Positions 22,469-31,460 of a stretch of 64,000 nucleotides of DNA are shown piece after piece. The DNA lies in NCBI RefSeq assembly GCF_004028275.1, contig NZ_CP035033.1:1736001-1800000 (forward strand). Reading direction: 5' to 3'. The position numbers and the translations under genes were made by a program. The stretch is from Hydrogenovibrio thermophilus. GTDB taxonomy: Bacteria > Pseudomonadota > Gammaproteobacteria > Thiomicrospirales > Thiomicrospiraceae. How positions within the stretch are numbered: the first letter of the stretch is position 1; every line of letters starts with the position of its first letter. The notes beneath the pieces are model-generated. The model ran no database searches. It saw nothing but the letters and a program-made list of their open reading frames with translations, and was not told the origin of the DNA.

Positions 22469-22473
22469 TTTTT
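22448..22473 (+). terminator. Palindromic terminator overlapping the hydrolase stop codon
   Basis: A perfect dyad of AAAAATCA, the core CCAGGCCTGG (22456-22465) and TGATTTTT. It begins inside the last codons of the gene, supplies its TGA stop and ends with the T-run. Confidence 0.8.
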
Positions 22474-22563
22474 AAGTATGATTTTATAGGTGGTCATGAT
22501 GACTAATATGGCAATAAGCAGCCCAAAATGCTTATCTAATGATTAGACCGCTAGGGGAGCGAT

Positions 22564-23052
22564 GTGTTTGAAGTCGTAAGAGCCGTTTTTCCGGATGATT
22601 TAAAGGATGTGCTCGATCTGTATGTTGAATATGTGAATAGCGCTTCTGTCGATCTTTCATTTCAAGACAACGAACGTGAGTTCAGTCAATTGCCCGAAAA
22701 ATACAGTTCTAAAGAATCAAAGATTTTTTTGCTGAAAAAAGATGGAAAACCTGTTGGCTGTGCTGCATTTCGTAAGTTGGATGACACTGTTTGCGAAATG
22801 AAACGAGTTTATATTCGACCGAGTGCCCGTGGCAGTAATCAGGGAGCGAAGCTGATTGATAGAGTGTTGCAAGAGGCGGTTAGCAGCGGATATCAAAAAA
22901 TCTGTTTAGACGTGCTGCCTGAATTCAAAACCGCCTTGAGATTATACAAATCATATGGATTTGTTGACCATCCTCCTGTCACGAACAACCCTGTACCAGG
23001 AACCTATTTTTTGGGGTTAAATTTAGAGAAATACGACTCAAAATTACAATAA
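22564..23052 (+). CDS. GNAT-family N-acetyltransferase
   Basis: This 162-residue acetyltransferase starts at a GTG (22564) with a GGGGAG ribosome site. The GNAT fold is visible: KPVGCAAFRKLDDTVCEMKRVYIRPSARGSNQGAKLID contains beta-strand 4 and the acetyl-CoA pyrophosphate loop (R-G-S-N-Q-G-A, a variant of the Q/RxxGxG/A motif), followed by GYQKICLDVLPEFKTALRLYKSYGFV. The target may be a small molecule or a protein N-terminus; nothing in the sequence decides. It is the first gene of an AT-rich block (22.5-24.5 kb) whose composition differs from its neighbours, suggesting recent acquisition. Confidence 0.85.
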   Translation: MFEVVRAVFPDDLKDVLDLYVEYVNSASVDLSFQDNEREFSQLPEKYSSKESKIFLLKKDGKPVGCAAFRKLDDTVCEMKRVYIRPSARGSNQGAKLIDRVLQEAVSSGYQKICLDVLPEFKTALRLYKSYGFVDHPPVTNNPVPGTYFLGLNLEKYDSKLQ

Positions 23053-23093
23053 ACGAGCTCTTAGAATTCAGCATTTAGGACAATACACACCTC

Positions 23094-23750
23094 ATGAAAG
23101 GATACACTCAAAAAAATTGGAAGACATTTAGAGAAGAAGTCATCGAACTAGATGGCAAGGTTTGCAGTATCTGCGGGCGCGGCGAACCAGACGTTTACTT
23201 GCAAGTTCACCACAAACGCTATGTTCAAAATAAACTTCCATGGGAATATCCATACAAGGATTGCATTACACTCTGCAAAGGCTGTCATGCTGCAGAACAT
23301 GGAAAAGTACCTCCTAAATTTGGCTGGGAATACGTTGGCTATGACGACCTAGGTGATCTTATTGGCATCTGTGAATTATGTGGCAGCAGCTTACGTCATC
23401 AATTCTTTGTTTTTCATGAAAACTGGGGGACTATGGAAGTCGGAACATACTGTTGTGACTCCCTATTAGATACAGAAATCGCTTCAAACCAAGTCGATTC
23501 TAAAAAACGCTATGAAAATAGAAAAAAACGCTTCATCCAATCAAGTAGATGGAAATCAAGCTGTAATACACATAAAATCAAACAAAACAAAATTTCCGTA
23601 GTCATATCGTTGAATGAAAACAAATATTACATTGCAATGGATGATTTCAAGGGAAAGCGTCTTTTCCATACTATTGATGAAGCGAAAGAACACGTATTTA
23701 AAGTAATTGAAAATGGAGAAGCCAGCAAATATCTTGAACAACATAAATAA
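23094..23750 (+). CDS. HNH-type nuclease with a second Cys cluster
   Basis: This 218-residue protein has an N-terminal HNH-like domain: CSICGRGEPDVYLQVHHKRYVQNKLPWEYPYKDCITLCKGCHAAEH. It contains the paired Cys-x2-Cys zinc ligands, the His-His catalytic dyad and the closing Cys-x2-CH. A second cluster follows at about residues 98-125 (CELCGSSLRHQF ... YCCD), which looks like another zinc-binding knuckle. The C-terminal third is basic and ends in a short alpha/beta domain. HNH proteins are used in restriction, phage, intron and DNA-repair settings. The low GC content and position beside a HEPN-like protein suggest defence, but no methylase or specificity gene is present. No ribosome site is evident. 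Confidence 0.8.
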   Translation: MKGYTQKNWKTFREEVIELDGKVCSICGRGEPDVYLQVHHKRYVQNKLPWEYPYKDCITLCKGCHAAEHGKVPPKFGWEYVGYDDLGDLIGICELCGSSLRHQFFVFHENWGTMEVGTYCCDSLLDTEIASNQVDSKKRYENRKKRFIQSSRWKSSCNTHKIKQNKISVVISLNENKYYIAMDDFKGKRLFHTIDEAKEHVFKVIENGEASKYLEQHK

Positions 23751-23825
23751 TCAAAAATGGCATTTCTAATAACCGCACTGCAGCGTTCTATAGTAACTAC
23801 CTCATGGATTGAAACTTAAACTTTT

Positions 23826-24419
23826 ATGAATCTATCTGCACCAAAAAAAGATCTCGATATCGCAAGAAAAGCAATTGACAACATGAAGTCCACTCAGGAC
23901 TTTTCTGAGTTTCAGGAAAGTTGGGAAAACTTTCTATTTAGGATAGAAAGAGCCTGGGAATTTACAGAGAGAACATTAAAAAGCAGGAAAGGCTTCCAAC
24001 AATGGCACAAGCCCTATACTGATTTAAGAAAAAAAGATTCCCTATTGGTTTTCTTAAAACAAGCTAGAAACGCAGAAATGCACAGTGTTTCGCCTACAGT
24101 TACAAATCCTCTTAAAATGACTATAGTCGAAAGTAATGGACGAAAATTTCAAATAAACTCCATATCGTCAAAGCTAGAAGATGGGACTTTGACAATAGAC
24201 TTAGATTCTCCCGATATCTTACTCGACCTAGATACTCGAATAATACCTACTGCCCCTGAAGTCATGCGTTTCAAAAATAGAGGTAAATGGTTTAATCCTC
24301 CATGGCAGCACCTCAAGAAGAGAATCCGGGACCTACATCCAGTTGCTTTGGCAGAGCTTGGCCTTACCTTCTACAATACATATGTCCATGAAGCTGAGCT
24401 GTGGTGTCAAAAAACTTAA
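23826..24419 (+). CDS. HEPN-like protein with RN-x3-H motif
   Basis: I do not recognise a named family for this 197-residue protein. The first 90 residues are predominantly helical and end with FLKQARNAEMHS, which contains R81-N82-x3-H86, the arrangement (R, polar residue, 4-6 spacing, H) that defines HEPN ribonuclease domains. The rest is mixed, with a beta-rich middle (residues 95-145) and a Trp-rich stretch (GKWFNPPWQHLKKRI), then a helical end (ALAELGLTFYNTYVHEAELW). The GC content is low (hand counts of 22 and 20 in two 60-base stretches). No ribosome site is visible. HEPN RNases are common in toxin-antitoxin and abortive-infection systems, but no antitoxin-like neighbour is evident. Confidence 0.65.
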   Translation: MNLSAPKKDLDIARKAIDNMKSTQDFSEFQESWENFLFRIERAWEFTERTLKSRKGFQQWHKPYTDLRKKDSLLVFLKQARNAEMHSVSPTVTNPLKMTIVESNGRKFQINSISSKLEDGTLTIDLDSPDILLDLDTRIIPTAPEVMRFKNRGKWFNPPWQHLKKRIRDLHPVALAELGLTFYNTYVHEAELWCQKT

Positions 24420-24513
24420 GAGAGCACTAACGGAGAAACGTTATTCAACCTCCTCCACTATACAACTAGCATTGTGTAATGAAATCACACACCAAGGGCT
24501 GGAAAAAACAGGG

Positions 24514-25707
24514 TTAGTGGTTTAGAACTCCAGCGGCATCTTTAAAGCGCTTAAGCGCCTCATCCATGGTTTCCGTCGGCACAGCAATATTGATTCGCAT
24601 AAAGCCTTTTCCAACTTCCCCAAAACTTTCGCCGTCATTCAAGCCCAGTTGAGCGGTTTCAGTGAGCCAGCGTTTTAAGTCTTCTTGGCTTTGAAACTTT
24701 GTGCCAAAGAGTTCAGAAAAATCCAACCATACCAGAAAGGATGCTTCCGGGCGCATGACGCGCACGGCGGGCAAGCAGTCGGCCAGAGTTTGTTCCAGCC
24801 GGTCAATATTATGTTGCAAATGCGCCAGCAAAGTGTCGCGATAGGCTTTACCCGCTTCCGAATAAGCGGCTTGCATGGCTTCTTTGCCGAACAGGTTTAA
24901 GTCGTGAATGGAATTGGCGCGACACACTTTCAGATAAGCCGCTTTCAAGACACGATTGGCGATAATCGCATAACCGCTTTGCAGGCCGCCGAGATTAAAG
25001 GTTTTGCCCGGTGAACTGAGTGTCACGGTGTTGTGCGCCACTTCTTCCGACAAGGAAGCCATGGGCGTGTGTTGCAATGGCGGAAAGGTCATGTCGGCAT
25101 GGATTTCATCGGACACTACCGTCACGCCGTGTTTCAGGCAAATGTCTGCCAGGCGTTGCAGTTCTTCCCGCCGCCAAACGCGGCCGGACGGGTTTTGTGG
25201 ATTGCAGAACAAAAACAGCTTCACATCGTTTTCGGTAATGGCGGTTTCAAACGCTTCAAAATCGATTTGATAACGGTTGTCCTGTAAGACCAGCGGCGCT
25301 TCCACCAGACGGCGACCGTTATTTTCCGGTGCGTGCAAAAACGGCGGATAAATCGGCGGTTGCACCAGCACAGCATCGCCCGGTTCCGAAAAGGCGGACA
25401 CCGCCATAAAAAAACCGTTGGCAACATTGTGCGTGAACAGAATTTCCGAAGCCTTCACGTCGTAACCGTATTGCGCCTGCCAATCCATAATCGACTGATA
25501 CAAACTGTCCGGCATGACGTTATACCCCAGAATCGGGTGTTCCAAACGGCGTTTCAAAGCGTCCAGAATAAAATCCGGCGTAGGCAGATCTTGGTCCGCC
25601 ACCCACATCGGCAACACCGATTCCGAACCGAACAAGCGTTGCCGCAGTTCGTACTTTTCGGCGTCAGTGCCTAAGCGGGAAATGGCGTGTTCAAAATCTG
25701 GAAACAT
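24514..25707 (-). CDS. PLP-dependent C-S lyase, PatB/MalY type; probable OvoB
   Basis: This is a 397-residue fold-type I PLP enzyme of the MalY/PatB cystathionine beta-lyase group. It begins FPDFEHAISRLGTDAEKYELRQRLFG and has LPMWVADQDLPTPDFILDAL, which is diagnostic. PLP-site features are FCNPQNPSGRVW, VVSDEIHADMTF (Asp) and the Schiff-base lysine in LSSPGKTFNLGGLQSGYAI. It lies immediately downstream of the ovoA-like gene on the same strand (20 bases after the full-length ovoA reading frame ends). OvoB in ovothiol synthesis is a PLP-dependent lyase that cleaves the 5-histidylcysteine sulfoxide made by OvoA, so OvoB is the likeliest role. A general cysteine-conjugate lyase is the alternative. 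Confidence 0.85.
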   Translation of the reverse strand: MFPDFEHAISRLGTDAEKYELRQRLFGSESVLPMWVADQDLPTPDFILDALKRRLEHPILGYNVMPDSLYQSIMDWQAQYGYDVKASEILFTHNVANGFFMAVSAFSEPGDAVLVQPPIYPPFLHAPENNGRRLVEAPLVLQDNRYQIDFEAFETAITENDVKLFLFCNPQNPSGRVWRREELQRLADICLKHGVTVVSDEIHADMTFPPLQHTPMASLSEEVAHNTVTLSSPGKTFNLGGLQSGYAIIANRVLKAAYLKVCRANSIHDLNLFGKEAMQAAYSEAGKAYRDTLLAHLQHNIDRLEQTLADCLPAVRVMRPEASFLVWLDFSELFGTKFQSQEDLKRWLTETAQLGLNDGESFGEVGKGFMRINIAVPTETMDEALKRFKDAAGVLNH

Positions 25708-25727: not shown

Positions 25728-27857
25728 TCAGGATTTCTTTTTCCAAAGCGTAACTTCGGACAAGGAATGCTGGAACTTGCGTTGGGTTTCACGAATCACA
25801 AACGGCAACTCGAACGGTTCTTGAACCCGCTCAAATTCAGCATCCAACACGGCGTGCAACCCTTCTAAGGTAGTGACGTTTTCACCGCTTTGCGCATCCT
25901 TATAACCGCCCAGCTAATGTTCTTTGGCCGTGAATTCTTCCAACCAAGTGTAAGGTGACGCCAACAATAGCAAACCGCCGTCGTTCATGCGTTCGTGAAT
26001 CATGCTCAAGAAGCGCTTCGGTTCGTACAAACGGTCAATCAGATTGACGGCCACCACCATGTCGTACCCGGTGAAATGCGGTTTCAGGTTGGCGGCATCC
26101 TGTTGCATAAATTCACAGCGTTGCGCCACATCGGACAAGCCTAAATCGGCCAACGTCTGCTCTTTGAAATCCATGATTTCACCTTCCGTCGGAATGGTGT
26201 AGAGCACATTGCCGGATTCTTTCAATTGGTTGGCGACCTGAATAAAACGCGCCGAAAAATCCAAGCCGGTGACCTGCGCGAAATGATGCGCCAGTTCGAA
26301 ACTGGCACGCCCGACTGAACAGCCCACTTCCAGTACGCTCAAATCATCACGACCGGCCAAGTCGTTATCGTCACGCGCCGCTTTAATCGCCAATTCGGCA
26401 TAAGCCTGCGCAAAATTCGCCACACCGAAATATTCATCGCCGTAATGGAATTCACAGTATTGCGACACCAGATCATCGGTTTCATAAGTGGAGAAATGGG
26501 TTTGAACGCTTTCATCCGACTCGATGTAACGGAAACCGGCGTGCTGGAAAAAGTGACGGCGGAAAGCGTAACGTGAATGGCCGTTGGCTTCGTTACCGGT
26601 GGAAATCCAGCTCCCGCCTTTGAACAGGTTGTGCTGGTTATCGAACGTCGGCGTGGTGAAGTCATCGTATAACGGATGCACTTTGAAGCCGTCGTATGGG
26701 TAAATCGGCGTTTGCGTCCATTGCCAGACGTTACCGACCACGTCGAAAAAATCGCCGGTTTCAAAACGGTTCACCGGCACCGACGAGGCGTATTGCTGCA
26801 AATTGATATTGGCCTTGTCCTGCTTTTCCAACGCGCGGGTATGGTCGCGCAGCCTTAAATATTCATCTTCACTCGGCAGGCGAATCGGACGGCCGGTCTG
26901 ATGCCCTTTCCAGTTACAGAAGGCATTCGCTTCCAGATAGTTCACTTCCACCGGCCAATCCCATGGCATGGGGATTTCATCGGTCATACAGCGTAAATAC
27001 CAGGCCTGGTCTTTTTTCACCCAAAAGGTCGGATGTTTGTCCGGCGTGAACTGACGCCAGCGATTGCCCTCATCGGTCCAATATTCCGGGTTGTCGTAAC
27101 CGCCGGCTTCGACAAACTCCAGATATTCATGATTGGACACTAAAAAAGCGGCGGCTTTAAAGCCGCTGACATCGGCTTGATGCTGGCCGTATTCATTGTC
27201 CCAGCCGTAAGTTTCCGCCGGGTCTTGGTGGTCGATGGTGACGCGTCCGCCGGGGACGTCGAACAAAATGTTTTCCGGCGCCTGACCGCTGTCCGGGCAC
27301 ACCGGAAACAACGGATGCGGCTTGACCGATTCAATCGGCAATTGGCGAATCAGCACTGACGAGGTTTCCAGATGAATGCGTTCGTGTTCAATACCCATCA
27401 TCACCGGCCACATCGGGCTTTCCCAATCAATCGGCAGGTGGAAATCCACGGAGTCAATCAACTGATTGACCGCATCGCGCACTTGCTGACGATATTCACG
27501 GACCGCATCGACACTCGGCCAGTCGTAATGAGATTCGTCCAAATCGTCCCAAGACATTTCATCCACGCCGATGGCACACATGGATTCGATTTTCGGGTTG
27601 ATGCGTTCCGGTAGCAACTTGGCGAGCACCAGCTTATTGGTGAAAAAGGTGGCGGTGTGGCCGAAATAAAAAATCAGCGGATGGCGCAGTTCACAGGGGC
27701 GTTCATAGTAAGCCTCGTCCGACACCAGGGTTTCGAATAAGGTTTCGTAGGCATCGTAGGTGGCGTTGAAATAGGCCTTGATTTCGGCGCGTTTGGCTTC
27801 AATTTCACCTTGATTTAAAAACACCGGTTTTGAAATCAAATCGTCTCGGTTTAACAT
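25728..27857 (-). pseudogene. ovoA: 5-histidylcysteine sulfoxide synthase / mercaptohistidine methyltransferase, interrupted by amber codon
   Basis: OvoA joins histidine and cysteine oxidatively and then N-methylates the product to give ovothiol. The N-terminal DinB-like and FGE-sulfatase-like part has the iron ligands (FYFGHTATF and GIEHERIHLETSS), then WGNE-like repeats and the VGNVWQWTQTPIYPYDGF and FKGGSWISTGNEA blocks. A SAM-dependent methyltransferase follows (SVLEVGCSVGRASFELAHHF). The frame meets TAG at 25914-25916 after residue 647. Beyond it the same frame stays open for 61 more codons (LGGYKDAQSGENVTTLEGLHAVL ... RETQRKFQHSLSEVTLW) to a TGA at 25728, matching the expected family C-terminus. 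The amber codon occupies a site where related enzymes carry Trp, so one base (TGG to TAG) explains it. The product may be truncated, read through, or a sequencing error. Confidence 0.85.
27000..27009. repeat. CCAGGCCTGG copy inside ovoA
   Basis: An exact copy in the frame CAG GCC TGG (Gln-Ala-Trp, within KKDQAWYL) of the ovoA-like gene; the flanks extend it to ACCAGGCCTGGT. Confidence 0.9.
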
Positions 27858-27914: not shown

Positions 27915-30900
27915 CTACATCGATAACATGACGCCACTATCCGGCAAATCCTCAAAGCTCGGATAACAGGTGGTCAAGCGGCTGGACTCGATGCCACCTT
28001 CTTCGACCAACCAGGTTTTGACCTGAATCTGACGCTGACGCGCCAGTTGATAGAGCTTGTCTTCCAGCTCCGTCCCTTTCAAGCCTTTCTTGACCCAATA
28101 ATCGCGGTCGGACTGGTTGTAAAAACCACACACTTTCAAGGTGACGGATTTTTTATCTTTCAACAGCTTGGTGATTTTCTTCAGATACTCCGGCATATCC
28201 GCCCGCCATTCATCCAGGCCTGGCTGATATTGCACCGGCTGCAGGGTCATTTCCCCGGCCTTCTTATAAGCGTATTCCGCCGCCAGGTAAATCGCGCCGT
28301 AAGGTTGAAGCGTCATCGCCAGCATGGCTTTTGAACCGCCTTTCATCGCATTAAAGAAGGCCACCGAAATCACTTGTGCAATGTTGAAACCGGGGTCGGA
28401 CAAGTCACCGTTGACCGGCACACTCAAATCGATGTTGTTGTCACCGTCGCGCAACAGGTTCAGCGCCAGACTCATGGAGCCGGCACTGGCGGCTTTTCCG
28501 AGATCGCTTGCGGCTTTGTCGACATCGGAAGCCGCTTTGTCGAGACCATCCCCTTTGGTTTTCGACGGGACCGGAACCGAATCGGCTTCCATCTCAAAAC
28601 CGGTCAATTTCAAACGATTGTCGGCATCCAGAATATCTTGTTTGATTTGAATATCCGACTTCATATTCAAGGAACCGCTTTGAATGCGATAGCCAAGCGA
28701 ACGACGAATCAACGGTGAGAAGGCGTACAAGTCCATATCCTGGATGTTCACTTTGATGTCGGCGTTCACTTTCGGTGAAAACGGCTGGAAGTCCCCTTTT
28801 GCGGTGACTTTGGTGAACCGGTCGATGGCCGCTTGGATATCCAACGGCGTTTTTTCATGCGCCTGGGCCGAATCGAGTGTGCCGATATGCCAGGTTTGAA
28901 TGGTCATATTCTGGTTCAGCGGTGGCGTAATGCCGGTGGACGTCAAATGCACATGGCTGTCACCGGTGATGTCGAATTGCTGCAGTCTGAATGGCGGCGC
29001 TTTCTCTTGAGAGGCTTTGGCCGTGTCGTTTGGTTCGGCCTTTTGTTCGGCTTTTTGCTCCGCCTCGGTTTTTTCGGACTTAGTTTTCGGCTGCGGCTGT
29101 AATGCGGCTTTCAAAGCCTCGATTTGTCCCAGTTTCGTTTCTTCGTTGAATGCCAAGGTCAAGTAAAAATCCTGCAAGGTCACCGTTCCAACATCCACCG
29201 CTTGATTGTTTTTCACATTGGCGTGGTCAATCGTCACGTCACCGGTGGATAACAAAGGCTGAGGGTATTCAGGGCTGGCGGCCACTTTAAGACCTTTCAC
29301 ATTCAAGCCTTTCAAAGACACCGCTTGCGGAGCGGTAAACGCCAAACCGGTTTTCAGGTTCGCGACATCGGCTACCGTCATCTTCGTGCGGGTATTGTCC
29401 AGTTTGACCGACTGCACAGCCAGTTGCCCCGCCGTCTTCACTTGAGGCGTTTCAGATACGGTCAATTGTGTTTTGCCTTTCCAATCCAGCGCTTTCAGCC
29501 CCGCGGATAAATCCTGATACGCCGCCGCCAGTTGTTTTACATCCAGGTGACCATCGGTCTGAACGGCTGGATGCGGCGAGGTGCCCACTTGAATGCCGCC
29601 TTGCCAATTCAAGCGACTGACATCGGCTTTGGAGCCATCTGCGTTGACGCCCACTGACGTCAACGCAATGCGGTTGTCGGTTAAGACGATATCGACCGGC
29701 GTTTGGGCCTTTTTCGATTCGGCGTTTTTTTCGTCTGATTTGACCGTGACGTTGACCGGCCCTTTCCAATCCAAATGTTGCAACTTGGCTTCGGTTTTCG
29801 GTTGCGAAAACTCGACGTGTTCCATCACTAAAGCGCTGCTCGGCAGAGAAACCAACAACCCGTTCTGGCTTGACTGAGTGATGTTCAAACCGCCCTGCCA
29901 GTCCAATTGGTTGACATCGACTTTCGCGTCATTCGCTTTCACGGCCACGTCCGTGACGGCGATGTGGGTGTCAGATAACGCGACCTTCATCGGCGTATCC
30001 GCTTTGGCCACGTCCACATTTTTTGCATCGGCTTGACGATCGGTTTGAGTGTCAGCTTTTTTCGAGGGCTTAAGCGTGACTTTCATCGGGCCGTTCCAAT
30101 CCAACTTTTGCAACTTGGCCTCGGTCCCCGACTGTTTGAATAGAAATTCTTCCGCCGTCAAAGCATTGCTCGGCAACACAATTTCCAGTCCGGACTTGTC
30201 AGACTGAGTGACATTGATTTCGCCCTGCCAGTTCAAGTGACGGTTATCCAGCGCGATGGCTTTATCCGCCATCGCCAGGTGGCTGACTTTCAGTTCACCG
30301 TCCGTCTTCACTTTCGGCACGCCGTCGGTCACGTCAACCTGGCTGTGGTTTTTCCAATGCACTTCGCCCAATTTGATGTCGGCGTCTTGCGCACGGACGC
30401 CGATGTCTTTCAAGTGCCATTCACCCTGGGTTTTAACCGCGGCATGCCCTTTACGGACCAAGGCTTGAATGTCTCCGTCCCAGTTAACAAGGTCGCCGGC
30501 CACGCGTAAGTCTTGTTGTTCAAACGCCAGTTTCTGAAAGGAAAAACGGCCTTTTTGGGTGATTTTGAGTTCACCGCCTTCGTTGACAACGTCCAATTTC
30601 AAATCACCGAAAACCAGGCCGGACAACTCTAAAATCTCCGGCGGCAGATATTTTCGGTAGGTCGACAAATCAAGATTTTTAACAACAATGTCACCGCTTA
30701 GACGCTGTTTTTCAGCAAACGGCCACATTTGAAAATTTCCGACCAGATGATTTTTATCTTCTTGAATTTCAAATACCAGTTTGGCCGCATCGTCCGGTTG
30801 CCAGTTAATGGCTTTTTCGAGCAGCACCTTGTCGAATTCGATGTGTTTATCCAGTTCCGGTGTTTTCAGTTCCAATACGGCTTTGTTCAATTCCAACGAC

Positions 30901-31364
30901 TGAATGCCCAGCCCCCATGAAAACGGGTCTTTTTTTTCTTCCGGTATCGCTGCTTTGTCGGATTTTTTATCGAGCGAATAAGACAAACCCGCCACCCGAA
31001 TGCGCTCGCCGGGACGGTAATCGATTTCAATCCGGGTATCGAAAATCGCCAGTTCTTGAATTTTGATTTTTTTGTGGAAAAGCGCGGTCCAGGAGAGATT
31101 GACTTTCAGATGCCCCAGATGCAGGTATTGATGCTTTTCAACTTCAACTTCCAGATTGAAAATCTCCAAGCGACCGGTAAACAGATTGACCGACACCCTT
31201 TCGATGTGAACCGACTCCGCGCCTTGTTTCAACAACGCTTGTTCAAATCCCTTTTGCAACATCCAAGGCAATGCCAATAAAAACACACCAAACAAAACCA
31301 GTGTGTACGCCAACACCTTGTAACGGGTTTTAAGGGACTTCCAACGAGAATATAAAGCAGTCAT
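27915..31364 (-). CDS. Very large DUF748 protein (AsmA-like), 1149 residues
   Basis: The ATG at 31364 has the site GAGGCCGG; an upstream ATG at 31388 has none. The protein starts with one membrane helix (YKVLAYTLVLFGVFLLALPWML) and is otherwise periplasmic. It opens with an AsmA-like segment (HIERVSVNLFTGRLEIFNLEVEV), and its final 250 residues include the DUF748 block (LRLTGFEMEADSVPVPSK-like end, GDNNIDLSVPVNGDLSDPGFN, and KGGSKAMLAMTLQPYGAIYL). The middle contains three roughly 120-residue repeats around LDWNGPMKVTL, LDWKGPVNVTV and LDWKGKTQLTV. Such long beta-helix or bridge-like proteins are proposed to span the periplasm and move lipid, but function is not established for this family. 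Lys/Glu/Ala-rich stretches link the repeats. Confidence 0.85.
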   Translation of the reverse strand: MTALYSRWKSLKTRYKVLAYTLVLFGVFLLALPWMLQKGFEQALLKQGAESVHIERVSVNLFTGRLEIFNLEVEVEKHQYLHLGHLKVNLSWTALFHKKIKIQELAIFDTRIEIDYRPGERIRVAGLSYSLDKKSDKAAIPEEKKDPFSWGLGIQSLELNKAVLELKTPELDKHIEFDKVLLEKAINWQPDDAAKLVFEIQEDKNHLVGNFQMWPFAEKQRLSGDIVVKNLDLSTYRKYLPPEILELSGLVFGDLKLDVVNEGGELKITQKGRFSFQKLAFEQQDLRVAGDLVNWDGDIQALVRKGHAAVKTQGEWHLKDIGVRAQDADIKLGEVHWKNHSQVDVTDGVPKVKTDGELKVSHLAMADKAIALDNRHLNWQGEINVTQSDKSGLEIVLPSNALTAEEFLFKQSGTEAKLQKLDWNGPMKVTLKPSKKADTQTDRQADAKNVDVAKADTPMKVALSDTHIAVTDVAVKANDAKVDVNQLDWQGGLNITQSSQNGLLVSLPSSALVMEHVEFSQPKTEAKLQHLDWKGPVNVTVKSDEKNAESKKAQTPVDIVLTDNRIALTSVGVNADGSKADVSRLNWQGGIQVGTSPHPAVQTDGHLDVKQLAAAYQDLSAGLKALDWKGKTQLTVSETPQVKTAGQLAVQSVKLDNTRTKMTVADVANLKTGLAFTAPQAVSLKGLNVKGLKVAASPEYPQPLLSTGDVTIDHANVKNNQAVDVGTVTLQDFYLTLAFNEETKLGQIEALKAALQPQPKTKSEKTEAEQKAEQKAEPNDTAKASQEKAPPFRLQQFDITGDSHVHLTSTGITPPLNQNMTIQTWHIGTLDSAQAHEKTPLDIQAAIDRFTKVTAKGDFQPFSPKVNADIKVNIQDMDLYAFSPLIRRSLGYRIQSGSLNMKSDIQIKQDILDADNRLKLTGFEMEADSVPVPSKTKGDGLDKAASDVDKAASDLGKAASAGSMSLALNLLRDGDNNIDLSVPVNGDLSDPGFNIAQVISVAFFNAMKGGSKAMLAMTLQPYGAIYLAAEYAYKKAGEMTLQPVQYQPGLDEWRADMPEYLKKITKLLKDKKSVTLKVCGFYNQSDRDYWVKKGLKGTELEDKLYQLARQRQIQVKTWLVEEGGIESSRLTTCYPSFEDLPDSGVMLSM
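28214..28223. repeat. CCAGGCCTGG copy inside the DUF748 gene
   Basis: An exact copy read as CCA GGC CTG (Pro-Gly-Leu, within QYQPGLDEW) on the minus strand. Confidence 0.9.
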
Positions 31365-31460
31365 ACCGGCCTCTGAACGGGATTTCATTCATTGTAGCAG
31401 AAAGATTCTAAACCCAGTAGATGACAATGGCATTTCAATCCACCGGGTGCGTGATATGAA

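Follow-up and report, generated by a model that had tools for sequence, protein, structure and literature searches.

The ovoA gene of Hydrogenovibrio thermophilus is interrupted by an in-frame amber codon, which raises the question whether the gene has lost part of its function, the sequence holds a mistake or the codon is read through. OvoA, which serves the synthesis of the antioxidant ovothiol, is taken here to be the 5-histidylcysteine sulfoxide synthase / 4-mercaptohistidine N1-methyltransferase. The gene is located in a window of 64,000 nucleotides, the whole stretch of DNA that was analysed (positions 1,736,001 to 1,800,000 of contig NZ_CP035033.1), and the source genome (G000) is a single contig of 2,612,894 bases. 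A preliminary description of this DNA had offered three explanations: a recent pseudogene, a sequencing error and suppressed amber readthrough. The first two, a recent nonsense mutation or an error, are both possible, and the third found no support. A nonsense mutation ranks first and a sequencing error second. The literature collection searched contained no paper joining 'ovothiol' with 'Hydrogenovibrio'.

Organization of the ovoA locus

On the minus strand, ovoA (25914..27857) starts with ATG at 27857 and continues for 647 sense codons to a TAG at 25914-25916, codon 648, in the assembly sequence. Past the TAG, the same frame comprises 61 further sense codons, LGGYKDAQ...RETQRKFQHSLSEVTLWKKKS, and ends with a TGA at 25728-25730 (25728..25913 in total), 20 bases ahead of the ATG of the next gene (25707). 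A search of the frame up to this TGA detected no stop besides codon 648. The 647-residue part matches the sulfoxide synthase profile TIGR04344 (ovoA_Nterm) over residues 11-445 with 695.3 bits, above the cut-off of 400. It also carries most of the methyltransferase domain, matching TIGR04345 with 249.9 bits (cut-off 170) at profile positions 1-184 of 242 only, and the complete domain is not contained within one open frame. Read through, the match covers positions 1-242 with 328.4 bits and one TAG inside. The 61-codon tail by itself matches positions 186-242 (E 2.8e-16), a family likeness far beyond chance. The preliminary description is thus confirmed in placing the TAG inside ovoA, with profile matches on either side, and in extending the family-like sequence to the TGA before the next gene. 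The domain order equals that of the OvoA structure 8khq (PDB; TIGR04344 and TIGR04345), with which the read-through product aligns over residues 7-707. Known OvoA frames extend to about position 709, whereas the source gene ends at codon 648.

Downstream on the same strand, an intact PatB-family PLP C-S lyase gene (24514..25707), the expected OvoB, adjoins ovoA. Judged from the spacing, both genes presumably form an operon. The order of ovoA and lyase recurs in G008, which belongs to the same genus and has a very similar lyase there. Upstream, a DUF748 gene (27915..31388, minus strand) terminates with a TAG that is in frame with ovoA. The segment beside ovoB, window positions 22469-24511, has a GC content of 38.6% versus 51.1% for the window and no match at this place in G009, the nearest genome compared and a member of the same genus. 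Three genes lie in it: a GNAT gene, one with an HNH domain and one of 197 aa for which Pfam and NCBIfam gave no match at E 0.01. The segment looks like a recent insertion.

Conservation of codon 648

The residue at codon 648 was compared in 110 OvoA loci, the best 30 matches of one search and the best 80 of 586 of another. Tryptophan occupies the position in 109 of them; the sole exception is the source locus itself (L002). The 109 other loci represent 103 distinct sequences, and every one has tryptophan. All 103 align onward to query position 705-709, in a set that describes full-length OvoA and outside of which the truncated homologues reported in PMC12631010 would fall. Homologues that normally end at codon 648 are refuted for the loci examined. 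Within positions 648-709, 12 positions are at least 98% conserved. G009 has TGG at codon 648. Its ovoA differs from the source gene in 101 of 2130 bases, and the OvoA proteins are otherwise 99% identical. These comparisons support the proposal that a conserved tryptophan codon in a W-L/I-G-G motif turned into amber. A plasmid search with the 3' end of ovoA gave one record, 10% covered.

Isolation of the stop

Samples of 360 kb per genome were compared between the source and G009; about 146 kb aligned, with a synteny break near 1.70 Mb of G000. Of 276 source open reading frames (ORFs), 98 align to their ends in G009 (at least 75% identity). Ninety-three of these stop at the same place, and in four the difference is confined to short tails. 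The only one to lose a long conserved C-terminus is ovoA, in a count restricted to genes aligned to their ends. Seven of 104 G009 ORFs with a source match were flagged for stops or two frames: four start differences, one ORF antisense to a conserved gene, one short divergent ORF (223 vs 141 aa) and ovoA. In the reverse direction, source versus G009, 6 of 102 source ORFs were flagged. One of them differs at its end, by three residues; the remaining five, judged by eye on ORF maps, seem to be start differences or else spurious or antisense frames. The pair at sample position 328291 shows an internal in-frame length change, 345 vs 277 aa.

These data bear on the possibility that the TAG is a sequencing or assembly error and that the strain in truth carries TGG here and makes a normal OvoA of full length. 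Such an error is a tenable second explanation, clearly less probable than a mutation. It would account for a single substitution in a frame that is open elsewhere, at a strongly conserved codon, and for the lack of any amino acid change beyond the stop relative to G009. In a genome of 2.6 Mb, a single spurious nonsense codon is not unusual. Against an error, no other conserved gene interrupted internally was found in the roughly 146 kb aligned to G009, and a second genome of the genus carries an independent ovoA stop (see below), where chance errors would rarely place one.

Age of the stop and selection on ovoA

Over codons 1-647, the source and G009 genes differ by 76 synonymous substitutions and 9 nonsynonymous ones (dN/dS 0.027); over codons 649-709, all 15 substitutions are synonymous. 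A rough neutral simulation of the tail (1500 runs, branch equal to half the pairwise dS) put the probability of 0 nonsynonymous changes at 0.056 for a tail released from constraint during 20% of the branch and at 0.23 for 10%, using the gene-wide dS; with the higher local dS, the value for 10% was 0.03. The absence of amino acid changes past the stop indicates that the TAG is young, or an error, or, as an unlikely case, read through. Neither further disabling changes nor relaxed selection, the marks of a decayed pseudogene, were found in ovoA; if it is a pseudogene, it would be a very young one. Over the longer term, the gene is under strong purifying selection (dN/dS 0.027), which does not suggest dispensability and counts against a real loss.

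The ovoA gene is 95% identical to its G009 counterpart, while the mean of its 16.8 kb aligned piece is 87.6%. Its dS is 0.215 for codons 1-647 and 0.51 at the more diverged 3' end. The gene (25728-27857) is possibly a recombination tract.

Stops in ovoA of other genomes

In a search of 93 genomes, the source among them, ovoA was present in 10 of the 11 genomes of the genus. Two of these ten, G000 and G008, carry stops, which are unrelated. In the G008 gene (loci L004 and L156), codon 17 is an in-frame TGA; the other 12 sequences compared with it have glycine codons there. As in the source gene, one in-frame stop interrupts a frame that is otherwise open; it affects another codon and residue, and an N-terminal TGA would abolish the whole enzyme. 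An alternative start behind it is not favoured: of the codons ATG, GTG and TTG, the first in frame is a TTG at codon 40, and no Shine-Dalgarno sequence was evident by eye. Elsewhere in the family, 34 of 47 genomes have an ovoA match, none with an in-frame stop. In a sample of the class, matches at E<=1e-60 came from 20 of 369 genomes, and a stop occurred in the window's own genome only; four of the 19 others (G012, G015, G059, G064) are shared with the 93-genome search. A family genome that is 83% complete holds OvoA in two overlapping pieces (G053:C132:4806-6925), likely by a frameshift. One of the 19 other genomes in the class sample contains a 252-aa methyltransferase-only, OvoM-like match (G273:C4:101150-101884) and no other OvoA match at E 1e-60.

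The independent stop in G008 makes two unlinked sequencing errors in one gene less likely. Two unrelated stops among ten genomes of the genus, a small number, argue for a real, recent and recurrent loss, although the G008 TGA could itself be an error.

Amber suppression and readthrough

Partial decoding of UAG, with production of some full-length OvoA, had been listed as an option in the preliminary description; it is the least probable of the readings weighed here. The 61-codon tail is conserved in full relative to G009, and the base directly 3' of the TAG is a C. A stop codon followed by C is a weak termination context in bacteria. Both observations fit readthrough. All anticodons were read in the 43 tRNA places of the source genome found with RF00005, a search that may miss a very divergent tRNA and does not separately cover tRNA-Sec, tRNA-Pyl and PylS; none of the 43 is CUA (CTA in the DNA), and an amber suppressor tRNA was rejected as explanation. 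The only tRNA-Trp found has the anticodon CCA. TAG also serves as an ordinary stop: in the 360 kb sample it terminates 28 of the 276 non-overlapping ORFs that reach 150 aa, which are mechanical ORFs and in part not genes. Under efficient amber readthrough, the TAG-ended DUF748 frame would fuse into OvoA. In view of the absent CUA tRNA, the ordinary use of TAG and the DUF748 stop, a general amber suppressor is unlikely. A conserved recoding site is not apparent either, as the stop is present in one genome alone and none of the 109 other loci keeps it.

As a control, the ten TAG-ending ORFs among the 98 end-aligned source ORFs were compared with G009 past their stops. Seven have no more than 8 residues in common with G009, and the control is not clean: 105 of 120 residues are shared at sample position 227991 and 28 of 51 at 277032, compared with 61 of 61 in ovoA. 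The ORF at 227991 is antisense to two conserved ORFs; at 277032, the extension overlaps an adjacent ORF. Readthrough was rejected at both positions, the shared sequence being read as ORF overlap.

Predicted consequences for the OvoA protein

The favoured and probable explanation is a single-base nonsense mutation in an otherwise intact and strongly conserved ovoA. One base change would have turned the tryptophan codon 648 into TAG very recently, and the ribosome would halt there. The effect was predicted by modelling the methyltransferase domain (265 residues, 65 sequences, mean pLDDT 93.6); the stop falls at domain residue 204. The lost domain residues 204-265 contain the elements H219-227, E231-233, E238-245 and E251-263 in the model. 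With these 62 residues, the methyltransferase fold loses its final helix and its two final long strands. In class I methyltransferases, these are the closing strands of the sheet. Together with the TIGR04345 match, the model supports the earlier statement that the methyltransferase domain loses its C-terminal end. A class I domain lacking these elements is expected to be inactive as N-methyltransferase, with loss of N-methylation. The truncated methyltransferase presumably neither folds nor works, and ovothiol A would not be made.

Replacement from elsewhere in the genome was rejected. No stand-alone OvoM was found in the source genome with the TIGR04345 profile, which was applied to 11 genomes of the genus; ovoA alone scores above the cut-off there, and two further matches are weak general methyltransferases. 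Formally, the stop leaves the sulfoxide synthase domain and the OvoB-like lyase intact. The sulfoxide synthase half may persist or be lost as well. Given a stable shortened protein, it might still yield 5-thiohistidine together with OvoB; otherwise ovoA would simply be a fresh pseudogene.

An established rather than fresh state is conceivable as well, in which the stop is tolerated or favoured, OvoA is a stable truncated variant restricted to its sulfoxide synthase activity and the cell makes 5-thiohistidine, with OvoB, in place of ovothiol A. Natural precedents are reported: PMC12631010 describes truncated OvoA homologues without the whole methyltransferase module, co-encoded with 5THNAT, and OvoA-associated acetyltransferases with strictly conserved Glu119, Arg153 and Trp155. 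Methyltransferase activity is expected to be absent in these homologues and in the source protein alike. The complete sulfoxide synthase domain (11-445), the intact lyase and the missing OvoM replacement agree with such a variant. It is nevertheless improbable. Compared with the homologues described in PMC12631010, the source protein loses its last 62 residues by a stop and retains about 200 residues of a broken methyltransferase domain, a remnant that a clean domain loss would not leave; a 5THNAT-like gene was not recognised. At the locus, judged by the reported residues, no adjacent acetyltransferase with Glu119, Arg153 and Trp155 was found. The GNAT near ovoB (22564-23052) contains no tryptophan at all, thus no Trp155, and was rejected as 5THNAT. 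Furthermore, the stop shows no sign of age and recurs at codon 648 in none of the 109 other loci.

Significance for ovothiol biosynthesis

A far-reaching interpretation would hold that Hydrogenovibrio repeatedly loses ovothiol synthesis by nonsense mutations and that this strain carries a separation-of-function allele, accumulating unmethylated 5-thiohistidine as working thiol. It is highly doubtful. The TAG in ovoA does not point to a new genetic code or to recoding, and if the codon is an error, its relevance is limited to annotation. Should the TAG prove genuine, this strain would be a natural mutant of the OvoA methyltransferase next to a related species whose gene is intact, and the two would form a usable pair for probing the role of the N-methyl group of ovothiol.
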